Origin: Rhizobacter sp. SG703
GTDB taxonomy: Bacteria > Pseudomonadota > Gammaproteobacteria > Burkholderiales > Burkholderiaceae_C
DNA: 64,000 bases
Assembly (NCBI RefSeq): GCF_012275445.1
Contig: NZ_JAAZQK010000010.1
Span: 186,001 to 250,000, forward strand
Direction: 5' to 3'
Below, one piece after another: positions 49,051-62,054 of the stretch; position 1 is the first letter of the stretch; every line of letters begins with the position of its first letter. Under the pieces are notes generated by a model, which was given only the letters and a program-made list of their open reading frames with translations, ran no database searches and was not told the origin of the DNA. A program made the translations under genes and the position numbers.

Positions 49051-50093
49051 GCGCCGTGCTTTCTCCTGCAGCAGTGCCTGCGCGGCAATCCTTGGGCGTC
49101 TGGCACGCCGCGTGGAAGCGGCTGCGCGCCGACCGCGTCGGCATGGTGGCGATGGTGGTGGTGGCCGCGTTCGCGCTGCTGGTGCTGCTGGGTTCGGTCG
49201 GCCTGCTGGCGCGCGGCTGGCAGAAGGAGGTCGGCGTGCCGAACGCACCGCCGACGTTCATGGGCCCGGCCCCGGCCGCCGAGCAGAGCGCGATTCCGGT
49301 GCCGAAGGGCCCGAACGTCGACCTGTCGGCGGTGGACCCGCTGGCGCCGCGCTACAAGGAATGGGACGAGCGCGCCGCCAAGTTCAAGACCGAGGACAGC
49401 GTGAAGCGCGAGACGCTGCCGTTCGGCGGCGACCGCATCGGGCGCGACGTGCTGACCAAGGCGCTGAAGGGCACGCAGACCTCGGTGTTCGTCGGGTTGC
49501 TGGCGGCCATCGCGGCCAGCGTGATCGGCACGCTGCTCGGCGCGCTGGCCGGCTTCTTCGGCGGCAGGGTCGGCGACTTCCTCGAGTGGCTGTACAGCGT
49601 GTTCACGTCGATCCCCGACATCCTGCTGATCCTGTCGTTCGCGGTGATCTTCGGGCGCGGCATTTCCAGCGTGGCGATCATCCTCGCGCTGGTCGGCTGG
49701 ACCGGCATGTACCGCCAGGTGCGCGCCGAGTTCCTGAAGCATTCGGTGCGCGAGTACGTGCGCTCGGCCGAGGCGATCGGTGCATCGGCGGCGTCGCGCA
49801 TGTTCCGCCACATCCTGCCGAACATCAGCCACGTGATCCTGGTGCGCATGTCGCTGCTGGTGGTCGGCTTCATCAAGTTCGAGGTGATCCTGTCGTACCT
49901 CGGTCTCGGCGTCGGCGTCGACGACGTGTCGTGGGGCACGATGCTGGCCGAGGCGCAGAGCGAGCTGATCCTCGGCTACTGGTGGCAGCTGGTGGCGGCG
50001 ACCGCGTTCATGGCGGTGTTCGTGACGGCGTTCTCGCTGTTTGCCGATGCGCTGCGCGATGCGCTGGATCCGAAGCTGCGGGGACTGGAATGA
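49047..50093 (+). CDS. Peptide-type ABC transporter permease (OppC/YejE-like)
   Basis: Second channel subunit, 348 aa. After TM1 (MVAMVVVAAFALLVLLGSVG) there is a periplasmic loop of about 90 residues (GPNVDLSAVDPLAPRYKEWD) before GGDRIGRDVLTKALKGTQTS, longer than in most OppC proteins but like YejE. The EAA loop is YVRSAEAIGASAASRMFRHI with LPNISHVILV. It overlaps both neighbours by four bases and so is tightly coupled within the operon. Confidence 0.95.
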   Translation: MSAVLSPAAVPARQSLGVWHAAWKRLRADRVGMVAMVVVAAFALLVLLGSVGLLARGWQKEVGVPNAPPTFMGPAPAAEQSAIPVPKGPNVDLSAVDPLAPRYKEWDERAAKFKTEDSVKRETLPFGGDRIGRDVLTKALKGTQTSVFVGLLAAIAASVIGTLLGALAGFFGGRVGDFLEWLYSVFTSIPDILLILSFAVIFGRGISSVAIILALVGWTGMYRQVRAEFLKHSVREYVRSAEAIGASAASRMFRHILPNISHVILVRMSLLVVGFIKFEVILSYLGLGVGVDDVSWGTMLAEAQSELILGYWWQLVAATAFMAVFVTAFSLFADALRDALDPKLRGLE

Positions 50094-51814
50094 GCTTGTT
50101 GACGATCAAGGACCTGCGCGTGTCGTTCCGCGTGGGCAACGACGGGGGCGTGGTGCAGCGCACGCAGGCGGTGGGCCGCGACATCGACGGAAAGCCGGTC
50201 GGCGTCAGCTTCGACGTGCCGGAGAACACCACGGTGGCGCTGGTCGGCGAATCGGGCTCGGGCAAGAGCGTGACCGCGATGTCGATCCTGAACCTGCTGC
50301 CGAGCAATGCCGAGCGGCAGGGTGCGATCAGCTTCCAGGGCCGCGACCTGCTGGCCGCGACGCTGCCCGAGCTGCAGGCGCTGCGCGGCAAGGACATCGC
50401 CTGCGTGTTCCAGGACCCGATGAGCTCGCTGAACCCGGTGTTCACCGTCGGGCAGCAGATGGTGGAACCGCTGGTGCGCCACCTGGGCATGACGCGCAGG
50501 CAGGCGCTGGCGCGCGCCGAGGCCTTGCTGGTCGAGGTGGGGCTGCCGGAGCCGAAGCGGCGGCTCAGTGCGTACCCGCACGAGCTGTCGGGCGGGCAGC
50601 AGCAGCGCGTGATGATCGCGATGGCGCTGTCATGCGAGCCGAAGCTCTTGATCGCCGACGAGCCGACGACCGCGCTCGACGTGACCATCCAGCGGCAGAT
50701 CCTGGAGCTGCTCGCGAAGCTGAAGACGCAGCACCGCATGAGCATGCTGTTCATCACGCACGACCTGGGCGTGGTCGGCGAGATTGCCGACCAGGTGGTG
50801 GTGATGCGCCAGGGCACGGTGCGCGAGCACGGCCCGGTGGCGCAGATCTTCAGCGCGCCGCACGACGCGTACACGAAGGCGCTGCTGGCCTGCCGTCCGA
50901 CGCTGGACCAGCGCGGCGCGCGGCTGATGGTGATCGACGACCACATCGCCGGGCGCGCGGCGGCCGCACCGCCGGCACCGAAGGATGCGCTGGCGCCGAT
51001 CGTGATCGACGCCAGCAACCTGACGAAGAGCTTCTGGCTGCGCAGCGGCGTGTTCGGCCGCAAGGAATTCCGCGCGGTGAAGGGTGCGAGCTTCACGCTG
51101 CGGCGCGGGCACACGCTGGGCGTGGTCGGCGAATCCGGCTCGGGCAAGACCACGATGGGGCTGACGCTGCTGCGCCTGCACGAGGTGAACGGCGGGCCGG
51201 TCGGCGGCAAGGTGATGTTCGACGGCCAGGACCTGCTGGCGCTGAGCCGGCGCGAGCTGCTGCCGATGCGCCGGCGCATCCAGGTGGTGTTCCAGAACCC
51301 GTATGCGTCGCTGAACCCGCGCTTCACGATCGGCCAGACGCTGACCGAGCCGATGGCGATCCACGGCATCGGCGGCGACACCGCGGCGCGCGAGCAGCGG
51401 GCGCGGGCGCTGCTGACGAAGGTGGGGCTGGACGACAGCGCGATGCACAAGTACCCGCACGAGTTCTCGGGCGGGCAGCGTCAGCGCGTCGCGATCGCGC
51501 GCTGCCTGACGCTGGACCCGGAGGTGCTGGTGCTCGACGAGGCGGTGAGTGCACTCGACGTGTCGGTGCAGGCGCAGGTGCTGAACCTGCTGAAGGACCT
51601 GCAGGACGAGCTGGGGCTGGCCTACATCTTCATCAGCCACGACCTGGCGGTGGTGCGCTTCATGGCCGACGAGGTGCTGGTGATGAAGGACGGCGAGGTG
51701 GTCGAGCAGGCGAGCGTCGCGCAGATATTGGAGCAGCCGCAGCAGGAGTACACGAAGCGCTTGCTGGGGGCGATTCCGCGGGGGTATCGGGAGGGCGCCG
51801 CGCTGCAGGGCTGA
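50090..51814 (+). CDS. Fused double ATP-binding subunit of peptide-type ABC importer
   Basis: Two complete nucleotide-binding domains in one 574-aa protein (OppD plus OppF order, as in YejF). Domain 1 has Walker A GESGSGKSV, signature LSGGQQQR and Walker B LLIADEP; domain 2 has GESGSGKTT, signature FSGGQRQR and Walker B VLVLDEA, with SYPHELSGG-type flanks in each. A linker near 285-310 is Ala/Pro-rich. The TGA stop lies at the beginning of a TGAGCTTGTCCTT fragment of the interspersed repeat. Confidence 0.96.
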   Translation: MSLLTIKDLRVSFRVGNDGGVVQRTQAVGRDIDGKPVGVSFDVPENTTVALVGESGSGKSVTAMSILNLLPSNAERQGAISFQGRDLLAATLPELQALRGKDIACVFQDPMSSLNPVFTVGQQMVEPLVRHLGMTRRQALARAEALLVEVGLPEPKRRLSAYPHELSGGQQQRVMIAMALSCEPKLLIADEPTTALDVTIQRQILELLAKLKTQHRMSMLFITHDLGVVGEIADQVVVMRQGTVREHGPVAQIFSAPHDAYTKALLACRPTLDQRGARLMVIDDHIAGRAAAAPPAPKDALAPIVIDASNLTKSFWLRSGVFGRKEFRAVKGASFTLRRGHTLGVVGESGSGKTTMGLTLLRLHEVNGGPVGGKVMFDGQDLLALSRRELLPMRRRIQVVFQNPYASLNPRFTIGQTLTEPMAIHGIGGDTAAREQRARALLTKVGLDDSAMHKYPHEFSGGQRQRVAIARCLTLDPEVLVLDEAVSALDVSVQAQVLNLLKDLQDELGLAYIFISHDLAVVRFMADEVLVMKDGEVVEQASVAQILEQPQQEYTKRLLGAIPRGYREGAALQG

Positions 51815-55492: not shown

Positions 55493-55697
55493 ACGAGTGG
55501 TGCGCAACGGCCCCTGAGCGGTCGTTGCCGAGCCCTGTAACCGTGGTTGGAAACCGCCGTTGAAATAAGTGCGGCCGATCGACAAATCCGGTCAAGTCTG
55601 TAACGGCGACCTTACCGTCTGGCCACAATTCGGCTGGCGCAGCGTTCGTCGCGCGGCATTTTTGGTCCGAAGGCGCGTCGCAAGACCCGAAACCGGG
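55493..55697. other. Non-coding stretch between the hydrolase and the sigma-54 promoter
   Basis: No gene is seen here. GCAACGGCC and GGTCGTTGC (55504-55528) form a hairpin just after the hydrolase stop and may end its transcript, without a T-run. The rest is less GC-rich than the genes around, with TGTAACCG, GAAATAAG and CTGTAACGGCG words, and could hold activator sites for the promoter at 55698, but I cannot name a match to NtrC or similar consensus. Confidence 0.4.
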
Positions 55698-55713
55698 TTG
55701 GCATGGAAGCTGC
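55698..55713 (+). promoter_or_regulatory. Candidate sigma-54 (-24/-12) promoter
   Basis: The sequence TTGGCATGGAAGCTGC has the invariant GG and GC ten bases apart, matching YTGGCACG-N4-TTGC at all but two positions. A transcript would start near 55725. It precedes two small ORFs and a strong terminator, and the core is nearly the same as the candidate at 47943-47958. Expression would need RpoN and an enhancer-binding protein. Confidence 0.55.
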
Positions 55714-55794
55714 GCTTGAGTGCGCACAGACTGCCAGTCCGGTGACTCTCCCGCTACACGCCGGCAGCAGCTCCAACACAAGGACGTCGTTGCC

Positions 55795-56031
55795 ATGCCG
55801 CTGTTCCATCGTCGTACACCTTCATCCCGCCGGGCCCGCCCGGCGACCCCGAGCTGCCGCGGTGGCGCCTCGTCGCTGCTGCGCCTGGCCCAGCCGGCGG
55901 CCGGTCACGGCGGCGGCAACGTGCGGCACTGGCTGGCACGCGCGGCCAACGTGCTGTCGCCGGCCGCGGCCGAGATGGTCACCGTGCGCCCGAGCGAATT
56001 CGCCCCCAGCCAGTGGCTGGTCGGTCACTGA
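55795..56031 (+). CDS. Small ORF of unknown function (78 aa), sigma-54 unit
   Basis: Not a family I recognise. AAGGA lies 11 bp before the ATG at 55795. The first 20 codons are Arg/Pro/Ser-rich; then the frame becomes strongly G/C-biased at third positions and reads LLRLAQPAAGHGGGN, RHWLARAANVLSPAAAEM and MVTVRPSEFAPSQWLVGH to the end. It could also start at an internal codon. It is followed 12 bp later by a second small ORF and then a terminator, so the transcription unit is well defined even if the coding status is not. Confidence 0.4.
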   Translation: MPLFHRRTPSSRRARPATPSCRGGASSLLRLAQPAAGHGGGNVRHWLARAANVLSPAAAEMVTVRPSEFAPSQWLVGH

Positions 56032-56043
56032 AGGGGGCTGGCC

Positions 56044-56220
56044 ATGGCTCCGCGCACCGAACACCTGATGGTCCGCCCGACGACGACGCCGAGCGTGACG
56101 CGCATCACACCGCAGGCCGGCAACAGCACCGACCGCTCGTTCAAGGTCCTGCAGTCCAGAAGCGCTCCGGCGCAGCTGTCGTTGTTTCCGCCGCCCGGCA
56201 GCGTCCGCGCCGCGCGTTGA
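56044..56220 (+). CDS. Small ORF of unknown function (58 aa), sigma-54 unit
   Basis: Not recognised. AGGGGG precedes ATG 56044 by 7 bp. The peptide begins MAPRTEHLMVRPTTTPSVTR and ends SLFPPPGSVRAAR; it is basic, Thr/Pro/Ser-rich and has no membrane segment. Most third codon positions are G or C, like real genes of this genome. Both small ORFs contain an MV..RP motif. The stop is 24 bp upstream of a strong terminator. Confidence 0.45.
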   Translation: MAPRTEHLMVRPTTTPSVTRITPQAGNSTDRSFKVLQSRSAPAQLSLFPPPGSVRAAR

Positions 56221-56244
56221 TTTCTCGACGTATGTGACGTCCAA

Positions 56245-56313
56245 GGGGGAACGGGCAAGCCGGGGTGGATGAGAGCGAGCCCCCGGCACCTGTCCCGTTT
56301 CCCCTCTTTTTTT
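56245..56313 (+). terminator. Strong intrinsic terminator of the small-ORF unit
   Basis: The arm GGGGGAACGGG with CCGGGG pairs with CCCCGG and CCCGTTTCCCC across a 15-base loop, and is followed at once by CTCTTTTTTT. The stem is long and GC-rich with few mismatches, typical of a Rho-independent terminator. It separates the small ORFs from the nucleobase permease, which must have its own promoter in 56314-56454. Confidence 0.85.
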
Positions 56314-57738: not shown

Positions 57739-57849
57739 GCGGCCGGCGCGCCCGTCGGTGCATGCGACGATGGTGCGCGGCCAGTCGGCGTGAGATGCTG
57801 CCGCAGCGGTCGTGCCTCAGGTCCGCCCCTTGCTGGTCGATATCCACCG

Positions 57850-59946
57850 ATGCGTCCGATTTCGCGTGTTCCCGCGGCACTTCCTGTGCGCCCCACTCGC
57901 CCAAGCCTGCGCCTGAGCTGGGTGCTGCTGGCCGCATTGGCGTGCGGCGGCGTACGCGCCGCGCCGGCCTCGGGAGCGGCCTCCGCATCGCCGTCGATGG
58001 CCGCATCGGCCGCCGCATCCGACACCGGCGTGGCCGCCGAGCTGGCCGATTTCGAATCGACCGGCCGCGCCCATCCATCCGACACCGCGGCCGCGCTGCG
58101 CACGCGCGTCGGCACGCTCGCGGCCGGCAGCGCCGACTGGATCGACGCGTTGACGCTGCAGGGCCTGATGCACACCGAGGCGTCGGAGTTCGAGGCCGCG
58201 TCCGATTGCGCCCGCCGGTTGCGCGAGCAGTCGACGCCCGCCACCGAGGCCGCGGCGCGGCTGATCCAGGCCAGCATGATGCTGAAAAGCGGTGATGCGC
58301 GCGAGGCCGACAAGCTGCTGACCGCCGCCGCCGCGCAGTTGCCCGCGGCGACACCGGCCACCAGCCGGCTGCGCTTCCTGGCCGCGCATTCGAAGGCCCT
58401 GCAGCGCGCCGGCAAGCTCGACGACGCGGTGCGGCTGCACCTGCGGGAGATCGACCTCGCCGACCACCTCGGCATCGCCTGGCGCCGTGCCGAGGCCCGC
58501 ACGCGTGCCGCCTACTCGCTCTACAAGGCGCAGCAGCCGGAGCGGGCGCGCAGCACCAATGCCGAGGCGCTGGCGATCGCGACCGCAGCCGACGACAAGA
58601 TCTCGCTGGCCCGGGTGCACAACATCCAGGGCATCCTGCTCGACGGACCGGGCGAGGTCGCGGCCGAGCTGCATTCGATGCAGTCGGCGATCAACTACGC
58701 CCACGAGGCCGGCGCCAAGCTCGACGAAGCGCTGCTGCTGGCCAACATGTCGGACTTCTTCCTGCAGCGCGGCGACTATCGCACCGCACTGCGCCGCGCG
58801 CAGGAGGCGCTGCCGCTGACGCGCGAGGTGCGCGACACCAGCAGCGAGATCATCGCGCTGTGGAACATGGGGCTGGCCCACATCGGGCTGGGCGAGGTGG
58901 CCGAAGGCAAGCGGCACGTCGGGCTCGCGCTGTCGATGGCCGAGCACCGCGGCGACGCGCCGCTGGTGTCCGACGTGCTGCTGGAGTTCGGCACCGCGCT
59001 CGAGAAGGCCGGCGACGCGGCCGGCGCGGTGCAGGCGCTGCACCGGCACCGCTCGATCGCCGACAAGCTGGTGCAGCGCGACCAGCAGAAGGCCATCCTC
59101 GAGCTGCAGGAGCAGTTCGACAGCGACCGCCGCACCCGCGCGCTCGCGCTGCTGAACAGCGACAACGCGATCAAGGGCTCGCAGCTGCAGCGCCGCGACC
59201 TGCAACAGCGGCTGTGGTGGCTGCTGGCGGCGACCTTCGTGCTGTCGTTCGCGGTGGTGCTGCTGATGATGCGCCGCGTGCGCCGCACCAACCAGGCGCT
59301 GGCGCACAGCAACGCGCAGCTGAAGGTGCAGAGCGAGCGCGACCCGCTCACCGGCCTGGCGAACCGGCGCTATTTCCAGGCGGCGATGAAGCGGATGTCG
59401 GTCGACGGCCAGCTGGCCGGCACGGTGTACCTGCTCGACATCGACCACTTCAAGCGCATCAACGACGAGCACGGCCATGCGGCCGGCGATGCGGTGCTGG
59501 TCGCGATGGCGCAGCGGCTGGCCGATGCGCTGCGCGAGCCCGACCTGGTGGTGCGCTGGGGCGGCGAGGAGTTCCTGGTGGTGGTGCAGTCGCTGTCGCG
59601 CGAGCAGGTCGACGCACTGGCCCAGCGGCTGCTCGACGCGGTCGCGCAGGCGCCGGTCGCGTGGCAGGGCCGCGAGATCGCGGTCACCGGCTCGATCGGC
59701 TATGCGAGTTTCCCGATCGAGCCGACCGGGCTGGCGGTCGCGTGGGAGCCGGCGATCAACCTGGTCGATACCGCCCTCTACCTGGCGAAGGCGCACGGCC
59801 GCAACCGGGCCTATGGCGTCGGGCTGATGCATGCGCAGACGGTGCAGGGGCTGCAGGCGATCGCCGCGTCGCTGGAGTCCGCCTGGCGCGACGGGCAGGT
59901 CACGCTGACGCTGCTGCGCGGGCCGGTGCGCGAGGGCCGCGCATGA
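57850..59946 (+). CDS. Diguanylate cyclase with periplasmic TPR-like sensor (copy 1)
   Basis: A 698-aa membrane protein that makes cyclic di-GMP. A signal peptide or anchor (LRLSWVLLAALACGGVRAAP) is followed by about 400 residues of helical TPR-type repeats, a coiled linker (KAILELQEQFDSDRRTRAL), a TM segment near 455-475 and a GGDEF domain with intact GGEEF near residue 570. The RxxD feedback site (REPD) stands five residues upstream. Start ATG 57850. Its stop overlaps the start of copy 2 (ATGA); the two are paralogues. Confidence 0.94.
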   Translation: MRPISRVPAALPVRPTRPSLRLSWVLLAALACGGVRAAPASGAASASPSMAASAAASDTGVAAELADFESTGRAHPSDTAAALRTRVGTLAAGSADWIDALTLQGLMHTEASEFEAASDCARRLREQSTPATEAAARLIQASMMLKSGDAREADKLLTAAAAQLPAATPATSRLRFLAAHSKALQRAGKLDDAVRLHLREIDLADHLGIAWRRAEARTRAAYSLYKAQQPERARSTNAEALAIATAADDKISLARVHNIQGILLDGPGEVAAELHSMQSAINYAHEAGAKLDEALLLANMSDFFLQRGDYRTALRRAQEALPLTREVRDTSSEIIALWNMGLAHIGLGEVAEGKRHVGLALSMAEHRGDAPLVSDVLLEFGTALEKAGDAAGAVQALHRHRSIADKLVQRDQQKAILELQEQFDSDRRTRALALLNSDNAIKGSQLQRRDLQQRLWWLLAATFVLSFAVVLLMMRRVRRTNQALAHSNAQLKVQSERDPLTGLANRRYFQAAMKRMSVDGQLAGTVYLLDIDHFKRINDEHGHAAGDAVLVAMAQRLADALREPDLVVRWGGEEFLVVVQSLSREQVDALAQRLLDAVAQAPVAWQGREIAVTGSIGYASFPIEPTGLAVAWEPAINLVDTALYLAKAHGRNRAYGVGLMHAQTVQGLQAIAASLESAWRDGQVTLTLLRGPVREGRA

Positions 59947-62054
59947 GGGCGTTGCGCGATTCGTCCGGACCGAGCTTGTCCTTCGACAGGCTCAGGGCGA
60001 ACGGTGTGTTGCTGCTGCTCGCAGCAACCTGCGCCGGCCCGGCCGCCGCCGGCGTCATCGAGCAATCGGACCGCCTGGTGCGCCAGGGCTACGACCGCCC
60101 GGAGCCGGCGCTGCAGGCGCTGCTGCAGCTGCAGCGCGAGCAGGAGGCGCTGACGCCGCGGCCGGCGCAGACGGTGCGCCGGCTGCAGCTCGCGCGCGCG
60201 ATCGTGCTGGCGCAGAACGGCCGCGTCGCCGAAGCCGGCATGCTGGCCGAAGAGTTGCGCACCGGCACGGCGGGCAGCGAACCCGACGAGGCCGACGGCA
60301 CCGCGCGGGCCAACCTGGTGCGCGCGCTGGTGGCCGAGAACGACGGCCAGCTCGACGTGGCGGCCGCGCTCGCGCAGGCCGCGGTGCCGGTGCTGCAGCA
60401 AGGCTGCCCGGGGCCGGACGGCGCGCCATCGACGACCTCGGCCGATTGCGACTACCGCGCCGCGTGGCGCGCGCTGCAGGTGATCGAGCGCCATGCGCAA
60501 AGCCGCGCGCTGTGGGCCGAGGGCGCGCGCCACCTGCGCATCGCCGCGCAACTGGCAGAGGCGCAGCACGACAGCTACCGCCAGGCGCTGGTGCTGGGCC
60601 TGCTGGCGCTCGACATCGCGCGCCAGGGCGACATGCCCGGCGCGATGCGCACGCTGCAACAGGCACAGCGCGTCGCGGCCCCGCTCGACGACCCGGACGT
60701 CCAGGTGCGGCTGCGGCTGCACGAAGCCCGGCTGGCCGACATGCGCGGCGAGCACCAGCAGTCGCTGCGGCTGGCCGAAGACGCCTTGCCGATCGCCCGC
60801 AAGGCCGATTCGCCGCGCCTCGAATCGTTGCTGAACGCCAACCTCAGCGACCTGTACGCGCGGCAGAACCGCCCGGCCGACGCGCTGCGCGCCGCCGAGG
60901 CCGCGCTGCCGGTGGTGCGCCGCCACGGCGACCAGCGTGCCGAGCGGGTGCTGATCAACAACGCCGGTCTCGCGAAGATCGGCCTCGGCCGCATCGCCGA
61001 AGGCAAGCTCGACCTGGCGCGCCTGGCCGAGCTGTGGCAGCGCAGCGGCGCGCCGGGCAGCGAAGCGCAGTCGCTGCGCGAGTTCGGCGAGGCGCTGGCG
61101 GCGGCCGGCGATGCGCGCGGCGCGCTGGAGCTGTTCCACCGCGAACGCAAGCTCAGCGCCGAAGTGATGAAGGCCAACCGCGCCGCGGCGCTGAAGGACG
61201 TGCAGCAGCGCTACGACACCGAGAGCAAGCAGCGCGAGATCGAGCTGGTGAGCCGCGACAACGCGCTGAAGACCGCTGCGCTCGCGAACCGCGAACTGCA
61301 GCAGCGGGTGTGGGCGCTGATGGCGGCGGTGATGGCGCTGTCGGTCGGCGTCGCGGCGCTGCTGTACCTGCGGGTGCGCGAGATCAACCGCCGGCTGCAG
61401 GCGAGCCACGCCAACCTGCGGCTGCAGAGCGAACGCGATCCGCTGACCGGGTTGTCCAACCGCCGCCAGTTCCAGGCCGCGATGGCGCGCGGCGGCGAGC
61501 GGGGCGTCGAAGGCGCGCTGCTGCTGGTCGACATCGACCACTTCAAGCATGTGAACGACGGCCATGGGCATTCGGTGGGCGATGCGGTGCTGGTCGAGGT
61601 CGCGCGGCGGCTGGCCGGCTGCGTGCGCGAGAACGACCTGGTGGTGCGCTGGGGCGGCGAGGAGTTCCTGATCCTCGCGCCCGCGGTCAGCGCCGAGCAG
61701 GCCGAGCAGCTGGCCGCGCGCGTGCTGGAGCAGATCGGCCGCGAGCCGGTCGACAGCGGCACCGGTGGCGGCAGCGAAGACGTGTTGCGCGTCACCGCAT
61801 CGATCGGCTACGCGCGTTTCCCGCTGCCGCCCGACGACCTGCCGGTGCCGTGGGAGCAGGCGGTCAACCTGGCCGACATGGCGCTCTACACCGCGAAGGG
61901 CCAGGGCCGCAACCGCGCGATCGGCGTGATCGGCGCGCAGCTGCGCTCGGCCGACGAACTGAAGGCGATCGAGAACGACTTCGACAGCGCGTGGCGCGAC
62001 GGCCGCGTGCGCCTGCACGAGCAGCCCGGCCCGCAACCCGACCTCTTTTCGTAG
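59943..62054 (+). CDS. Diguanylate cyclase with periplasmic TPR-like sensor (copy 2)
   Basis: Paralogue of the preceding gene with the same layout, 703 aa: N-terminal export signal, TPR-type repeats, TM segment near 455-475 and GGEEF near residue 570, with RxxD as RENDLVVRWGGEEF. The export signal is odd: an interspersed repeat lies within it, so the N-terminus reads PSLSFDRLRANGVLLLLAAT. ATG 59943 overlaps the previous stop. The TAG stop is the first TAG of a REP-like element. Confidence 0.93.
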   Translation: MRALRDSSGPSLSFDRLRANGVLLLLAATCAGPAAAGVIEQSDRLVRQGYDRPEPALQALLQLQREQEALTPRPAQTVRRLQLARAIVLAQNGRVAEAGMLAEELRTGTAGSEPDEADGTARANLVRALVAENDGQLDVAAALAQAAVPVLQQGCPGPDGAPSTTSADCDYRAAWRALQVIERHAQSRALWAEGARHLRIAAQLAEAQHDSYRQALVLGLLALDIARQGDMPGAMRTLQQAQRVAAPLDDPDVQVRLRLHEARLADMRGEHQQSLRLAEDALPIARKADSPRLESLLNANLSDLYARQNRPADALRAAEAALPVVRRHGDQRAERVLINNAGLAKIGLGRIAEGKLDLARLAELWQRSGAPGSEAQSLREFGEALAAAGDARGALELFHRERKLSAEVMKANRAAALKDVQQRYDTESKQREIELVSRDNALKTAALANRELQQRVWALMAAVMALSVGVAALLYLRVREINRRLQASHANLRLQSERDPLTGLSNRRQFQAAMARGGERGVEGALLLVDIDHFKHVNDGHGHSVGDAVLVEVARRLAGCVRENDLVVRWGGEEFLILAPAVSAEQAEQLAARVLEQIGREPVDSGTGGGSEDVLRVTASIGYARFPLPPDDLPVPWEQAVNLADMALYTAKGQGRNRAIGVIGAQLRSADELKAIENDFDSAWRDGRVRLHEQPGPQPDLFS
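59972..60004. repeat. Interspersed FDRLRANG-type repeat inside the signal sequence of cyclase copy 2
   Basis: The repeat has GAGCTTGTCCTT, then CGACAGGCTC pairing with the first part, then AGGGCGAACGG. Translated in this frame it gives the SFDRLRANG peptide. I know this from many betaproteobacterial and other genomes, where it lies scattered between genes and is read as FDRLR(A/T)NG when it falls in a frame. Related pieces are at 4610-4672 and 51812-51824. Confidence 0.8.

Follow-up and report, generated by a model that had tools for sequence, protein, structure and literature searches.

We found that a short stretch of the window (the whole 64,000-nucleotide stretch of DNA analyzed here), which an earlier note had read from its letters as a self-contained sigma-54 unit with two small proteins of no known family, is conserved in related genomes; comparison of loci shows it to be a predicted sigma-54 operon that is nearly always single-copy and has recurring chromosomal surroundings. 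The 0.73-kb unit is flanked by genes for an alpha/beta hydrolase and a xanthine/uracil permease (neighbors assigned with Pfam; the permease, rightly placed downstream by the earlier note, is of the PF00860 type), and its parts, all on the forward strand, follow one another in the order upstream element, -24/-12 promoter, ORF1, ORF2, and terminator hairpin. The earlier note had proposed that its reading would fall if neither the frames nor the promoter were conserved in relatives; in fact, conservation holds for both frames and the promoter, and for the terminator as well. Since for the most part purifying selection acts on both ORFs, and the hairpin shows covariation, the unit is, on comparative grounds, an operon for proteins whose RNA end is conserved. 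We somewhat favor the view that it would encode a sigma-54-controlled pair of micropeptides, binding the sliding clamp and acting together, that may modulate replication or repair.

The unit ranges over the Rhizobacter-Piscinibacter-Methylibium group. By DNA search, it is carried by the window's own genome and 9 of the 10 other genomes of the genus, the tenth (G005) being 87% complete. An ORF1 profile matched 39 of 399 family genomes in 17 of 141 genera, although the weakest of these matches (E near 1e-3; e.g., G162, G345, and G406) lack a hairpin match and may be due to chance. The hairpin covariance model matched 47 of 399 family genomes in 16 genera, with one copy per genome except for two copies in each of two fragmented genomes; the match in G034 (E 4.5e-4) is probably due to chance, since a scripted hairpin search found no hairpin in that genome. 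The ORF2 profile matched 30 of 359 family genomes in 14 genera, five of which (G112, G123, G202, G235, and G252, from five genera) have weak scores and no match to ORF1 or the hairpin model. Among 330 Burkholderiales genomes, scanned with filters that lose weak matches, the hairpin model found only the known family members G000 and G125. When genomes of named species were searched by pattern, 46 contigs matched, from Rhizobacter, Piscinibacter, Methylibium, Sphaerotilus, Leptothrix, Rivibacter, Albitalea, and Ideonella, together with one MAG labeled Rhodoferax, one MAG labeled Myxococcales, and contigs labeled Burkholderiales, Betaproteobacteria, or Pseudomonadota. Removal of duplicates left 63 distinct loci, 61 of them with enough upstream sequence; in these 61, the promoter was present in 50, and regular expressions written after seeing the families found the ORF1 core in 47, the ORF2 motif in 49, ORF1 with the motif in 46, and promoter, ORF1, and motif together in 44. 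In one locus (L036 of G027), ORF1 and the hairpin were found and ORF2 was not.

The surroundings vary in part. Some loci have a permease gene 3′ of the unit, and others have one for a Bug-type binding protein. In many loci, what precedes the unit appears to be the end (PRGY) of the ATPase gene of an oligopeptide ABC transporter; in the window, a frame with a similar end (49112-51814) is separated from the unit by about 4 kb that contain kinase, TetR, and hydrolase genes. Two consecutive TPR-GGDEF genes of the diguanylate cyclase type lie 3′ of the permease at 57790-62054, the GGDEF assignment being backed by Pfam for the first and judged from the translation only for the second. We rejected a mobile element as an explanation for the unit, as ORF1 has no plasmid or phage match and the neighbors recur.

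The promoter, TTGGCATGGAAGCTGC at 55698..55713, is an exact match to TTGGCAYGNNNNYTGC and the only match in the window at up to one mismatch. Because 1.8 matches would be expected there by chance at that stringency, the promoter is unconvincing in the window alone, where the match proves little. Conservation shows that the unit lies beyond chance: 50 of 61 distinct loci have TGGCAY-N6-TGC at 250-760 nt from the hairpin on its 5′ side, as compared with 0/55 in downstream stretches and 1/61 on the reverse strand, and the -24/-12 promoter called by the earlier note is thus borne out. Transcription would be expected to start near 55724.

Upstream of the promoter lies a conserved 36-bp element, (T/C)GAC-N7-GTC(A/G)-N4-TGTAAC-N7-TTAC, which reads CGAC-N7-GTCA-N4-TGTAAC-N7-TTAC in the window (55580..55615; pattern and weight matrix). 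When scored with a weight matrix fitted on the same loci, 35 of 46 loci exceeded 9.0, the maximum of the shuffled controls, and the remaining 11 scored no better than shuffles; a strict text pattern for the first 25 bases was found in 30 of 61 loci. The last 25 bases (up to one mismatch) occur exactly once in 10 of 11 genomes of the genus, at the unit, and are absent from the genus genome that lacks the unit, while a looser pattern of element plus promoter gave one further AT-rich site each in G007 and G005. Since the element is confined to the unit within the genus at the stringency used, no regulon can be read from it. Its distances from the promoter fall near -57, -79/80, -89/92, -99/102, -108/112, and -122 (mostly 79-122 bp). 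The 22 genus-distance points, which are related within a genus, are helically phased (R 0.74; Rayleigh p ~5e-6), and with the distances reduced to 7 classes the phasing loses its significance (p 0.25). The element is probably an enhancer-binding-protein site, binding being read here from the DNA letters.

Sigma-54 serves nitrogen, surface, and motility genes under the control of activators, and the earlier note had suggested a nitrogen response. The NtrC site consensus is GCACC-N5-GGTGC; at up to two mismatches, no such site occurs between 55380 and 55864, and the upstream element does not appear to resemble one. The suggestion was therefore dropped, there being no NtrC-type site upstream of the promoter. 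Over the whole window, the same pattern at the same stringency was observed 139 times as compared to 107 expected, probably owing to GC-rich coding composition. PrsR was likewise rejected as the activator, because its model scores below the cut-off in the window's own genome: in 104 of 399 family genomes the model scores at or above this cut-off, the window's genome and four listed genus relatives are far below it, and other unit-bearing genomes are mixed. The PEP-CTERM genes of the PrsK-PrsR system likewise have a -24/-12 promoter with a conserved upstream element, at a mean of 63 nt (32-92), according to the excerpt of PMC1569441; in contrast to those genes, ORF1 and ORF2 match no PEP-CTERM model.

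The two small ORFs of the earlier note (78 and 58 aa), each with a ribosome-binding site, proved to be genuine conserved frames. ORF1 (55795..56031; 78 aa) follows the Shine-Dalgarno sequence AAGGA at 55780-55784, which together with a conserved spacer forms AAGGACGTCGTTGCC (55780..55794); AGGAYGTCGTTG is retained in several genera. Several genera also preserve the leader AGGAYGTCGTTGCC before ORF1, and not just its Shine-Dalgarno letters. ORF1 belongs to a nameless family with the core CRGGASSLLRLAQP and a WLxRAA helix, and its dN/dS is 0.05-0.54 (NG86, 17 pairs). The core, GG-x-SS-x-LRL, is invariant in 37 sequences, which were chosen by a regular expression for that core, and is also found in most of 44 loci recovered by profile. 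AlphaFold models ORF1 as two short helices (pLDDT 65). Neither of the window's proteins matched Pfam, NCBIfam, or PADLOC, and ORF1 had no match in a PDB sequence search or on plasmids or phages; one of the 37 ORF1 members touched Pfam PF17845 (E 0.086), which we judged to be chance. The MV..RP motif that the earlier note saw as shared by the two proteins is indeed present in the letters of both; it is not conserved in relatives, and we take it to be a chance likeness.

ORF2 (56044..56220; 58 aa), with the ribosome-binding site AAGGGGG immediately 5′ of its ATG, was compared in 17 pairs (NG86): 13 gave dN/dS values of 0.17-0.65, two nearly identical pairs gave 0, and two wide within-genus pairs gave 0.85-0.89. 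Its C-terminal core is VLQxxRAPAQLSLFPPPG. In an alignment of 30 sequences, Q44 is invariant (partly by construction, since these were picked by regular expression) and V35, L36, Q37, P42, L45, L47, and F48 are nearly so. AlphaFold gives an extended model without secondary structure (pLDDT 66), as would be expected of a docking peptide. One of the 30 members matched a PHROG (E 0.058), and a PDB sequence search gave weak adaptin matches only (6 sequences; E 0.017-0.12); both were judged to be chance.

What sets ORF2 apart is QLSLF (56173-56187), the canonical sliding-clamp-binding pentapeptide, which sits in the C-terminal third of the protein, in a stretch that is extended, and so presumably accessible and flexible, in the AlphaFold model. 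The consensus for clamp binding is Q-phi-x-[L/M]-[F/L] or Q-phi-x-[L/M]-x-[F/L] (excerpt of PMC13254535), and peptides with QLSLF and QLSLPL are measured clamp binders (excerpt of PMC12309361). QL[SD]LF occurs three times in 121,563 aa (245 long frames), all three within the unit, for a motif that is only five residues long, was noticed after the fact, and is selected for by our later regular expressions. A sample free of such expressions comes from an ORF2 profile for which only genus sequences were used. It recovered 33 loci (32 genomes): QLSLF occurs in 21, QLCLF in 4, QRSLF in 2, and QLSLY, QLSLW, QLSLL, QLSFF, QLCFF, and QRALPL once each, so that the Q is present in 33/33. Six-residue forms in further genera (QLELPF, QLELQF, QLELDF, QLCLPF, QLTLPW, and QLSFQF) were found by regular expression, before the hairpin and behind a recognizable VL-type lead, and the motif thus alternates between a five- and a six-residue form from genus to genus. 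A looser motif expression found it before the hairpin in 49 of 61 loci, as compared with 0/61 on the reverse strand, 0/52 in downstream stretches, and a mean of 0.65/61 in shuffles without the lead. The published consensus is fitted strictly by 37 of the 49; the other 12 depart from it by R at position 2, W or Y at the end, or F at position 4 (e.g., QRSLF, QLTLPW, QLSLY, and QLSFQF). Taken together, these patterns suggest that ORF2 probably binds the sliding clamp.

That ORF1 and ORF2 may work together is suggested by three loci (L109, L110, and L139, on draft or metagenome contigs) in which a GGASSLLRL-type ORF1 core and a QLSLF clamp motif lie in one protein of 62-77 aa; L108, of the genus to which L109 and L110 belong, has two separate frames. 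Because of this fusion, we take both parts to serve one task. The contig of L139 comes from a MAG labeled Myxococcales and has Burkholderiales-type sequence at the locus, probably a binning error. From these features we infer that ORF2 binds the clamp, that it acts together with ORF1, and that replication or repair is thereby modulated. One could envision an enhancer-binding protein at 55580-55615 activating sigma-54 RNA polymerase, upon which two small and largely unfolded proteins would be made; ORF2 would insert its C-terminal motif, QLSLF or, in other genera, QLxLxF, into the hydrophobic cleft of DnaN, and the GGASSLLRL helix of ORF1 would bring in a second partner. By competing for the clamp with polymerases or repair factors, or by recruiting something to it, the pair could slow or redirect replication or repair under one specific signal. 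In its fullest form, in which a dedicated enhancer-binding protein and sigma-54 drive a bipartite micropeptide that ties the clamp to a second partner as a replication brake or detour, with the 3′ hairpin RNA as a second output, we offer this scheme only tentatively.

The hairpin at 56231..56313, defined by covariance model, covariation, and fold energy, is a conserved intrinsic terminator. It folds at -40.3 kcal/mol (z -2.96; 1 of 200 shuffles was as good), in keeping with the strong terminator reported by the earlier note, and was missed by a general terminator-pattern scan, probably owing to its interrupted stem and large loop. Across loci, 98% of cells are paired in the 13 outer pairs and 84% in the 5 inner pairs; changes on both sides occur in 8 of 18 pairs (0/500 shuffles; 13/500 for pair types), and sliding the partner strand lowers the covariation signal. 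The loop, GAGAGCGAG at 56271-56279, is nearly invariant. Rfam 15 gave no match at gathering score, and the only sub-threshold matches were three on the other strand (E 0.39-0.89). Two pairings that might have involved the RNA were rejected. Long-range pairing of the ORF1 Shine-Dalgarno sequence with a 3′ GACGTCC exceeds 0.8 in only 5 of 17 loci and is thus no general mechanism, the 17 being those of 26 folded loci with a GGAYGYC leader, among which some matches may not be the true leader; complementarity of the loop inside the transcript amounts to 7-mers in 4 of 26 loci only.

In Sphaerotilus and Leptothrix, the hairpin is kept, both ORFs are absent, and the sigma-54 promoter is mostly missing; the hairpin occupies a comparable position there, an ABC-transporter end lying upstream of it in several of these loci. 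Since the hairpin is retained there without the ORFs, it may have a role of its own or may simply be an inherited terminator. Five loci of a Sphaerotilus/Leptothrix-type genus (L103-L107) have small signal-peptide-like or membrane-type proteins (MKFRWSEWLTAAALIFAFSAFAGAD...) in place of ORF1 and ORF2, and in L103 apparently two signal-peptide-like proteins stand in tandem upstream of the hairpin.

The same observations raise the question of whether the RNA is the product that matters, the hairpin or a 3′-end fragment regulating through its conserved purine loop and the ORFs being secondary. Persistence of the hairpin where the ORFs are absent, the near invariance of the loop letters, and the covariation would all agree with this, but a conserved intrinsic terminator by itself accounts for the stem, both ORFs are under protein-level selection, no Rfam family is matched, and the pairing of GACGTCC with the ORF1 Shine-Dalgarno sequence is inconsistent from locus to locus. 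We therefore consider an RNA of this kind unlikely; a purely non-coding RNA is contradicted by the dN/dS of the ORFs. Of the structured RNA that the earlier note had allowed for instead of proteins, what holds is the covarying 3′ hairpin, and what does not is the alternative to the ORFs, selected as these are at the protein level. ORF2 could also be a leader peptide, or an arrest peptide of translation, through which a sensed metabolite governs the terminator or the downstream permease. The RAP-type letters before its motif loosely resemble known arrest motifs, its end lies 8-117 nt before the hairpin across loci, and a permease follows the unit in part of them. Yet it is Q, L, L, and F that are best kept while R-A-P varies between genera, ORF2 and the terminator do not overlap, and the downstream gene is not constant (permease versus Bug-type binding protein), making such a leader very improbable.

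Other alternatives accept that ORF2 is a working protein and differ in what it does. QLSLF might dock on a partner other than DnaN, with the pair acting in a different process; although ORF1, being without a recognizable fold or family, would be compatible with this, the alternation of penta- and hexapeptides is specific to the clamp motif, and we regard a different partner as doubtful, if less so than an RNA product. Alternatively, ORF2 could be a SocB-like clamp poison, that is, a growth-stopping clamp inhibitor, with ORF1 as its antidote or degradation adaptor in a regulated toxin-antitoxin-like pair. The arrangement would suit such a pair: two small genes lie side by side, and the second has a clamp motif, as does the toxin SocB (excerpt of PMC9690074). 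Against it, both parts lie in one chain in L109, L110, and L139, the unit is nearly always single-copy with recurring chromosomal neighbors, and ORF1 is without a match on plasmids or phages. An activator-dependent promoter is also untypical of toxin-antitoxin pairs, and altogether we find the poison quite unlikely. The reading that we somewhat favor thus remains that of two clamp-directed micropeptides acting together.

We found no published description of the unit in the open-access literature, as searched by titles and abstract openings, where it could appear under other terms. Well-known proteins with a clamp-binding motif are enzymes or AAA+ proteins. Bacterial beta-clamp-binding proteins such as polymerases and Hda have the same five- or six-residue motif in a flexible terminal segment (excerpts of PMC12309361 and PMC13254535), whereas ORF2 is a peptide of ~41-67 aa with no predicted fold, encoded in a putative sigma-54 operon. 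SocB of the Caulobacter SocB/SocA system is likewise described as a non-enzymatic clamp binder (excerpt of PMC9690074), as is predicted for ORF2; compared by description, the unit differs in that its partner is fused in some genomes and its expression looks activator-dependent. As for transcripts, the S17 sRNA of Bordetella is likewise a short Burkholderiales transcript with a conserved 3′ part and a small ORF, but, by its description, the conserved part of S17 lies near a C/U-rich loop and its promoter is of the sigma-A type (excerpt of PMC11722255). The present transcript differs from both of the next examples in carrying two conserved ORFs. These are the sigma-54-driven regulatory RNAs CrcZ and NrsZ, which, as in the unit, are short sigma-54 transcripts with a strong terminator.

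The sliding clamp is a drug target, and natural peptides that have evolved to occupy its cleft, if ORF2 is one, would be informative for such work. For the organisms themselves, the preferred reading, if true, would mean that a sigma-54 unit with two tiny proteins as its sole products, one of them clamp-tagged, links an outside signal directly to the replication machinery, and that an on-demand control of DNA replication or repair has gone unrecognized.
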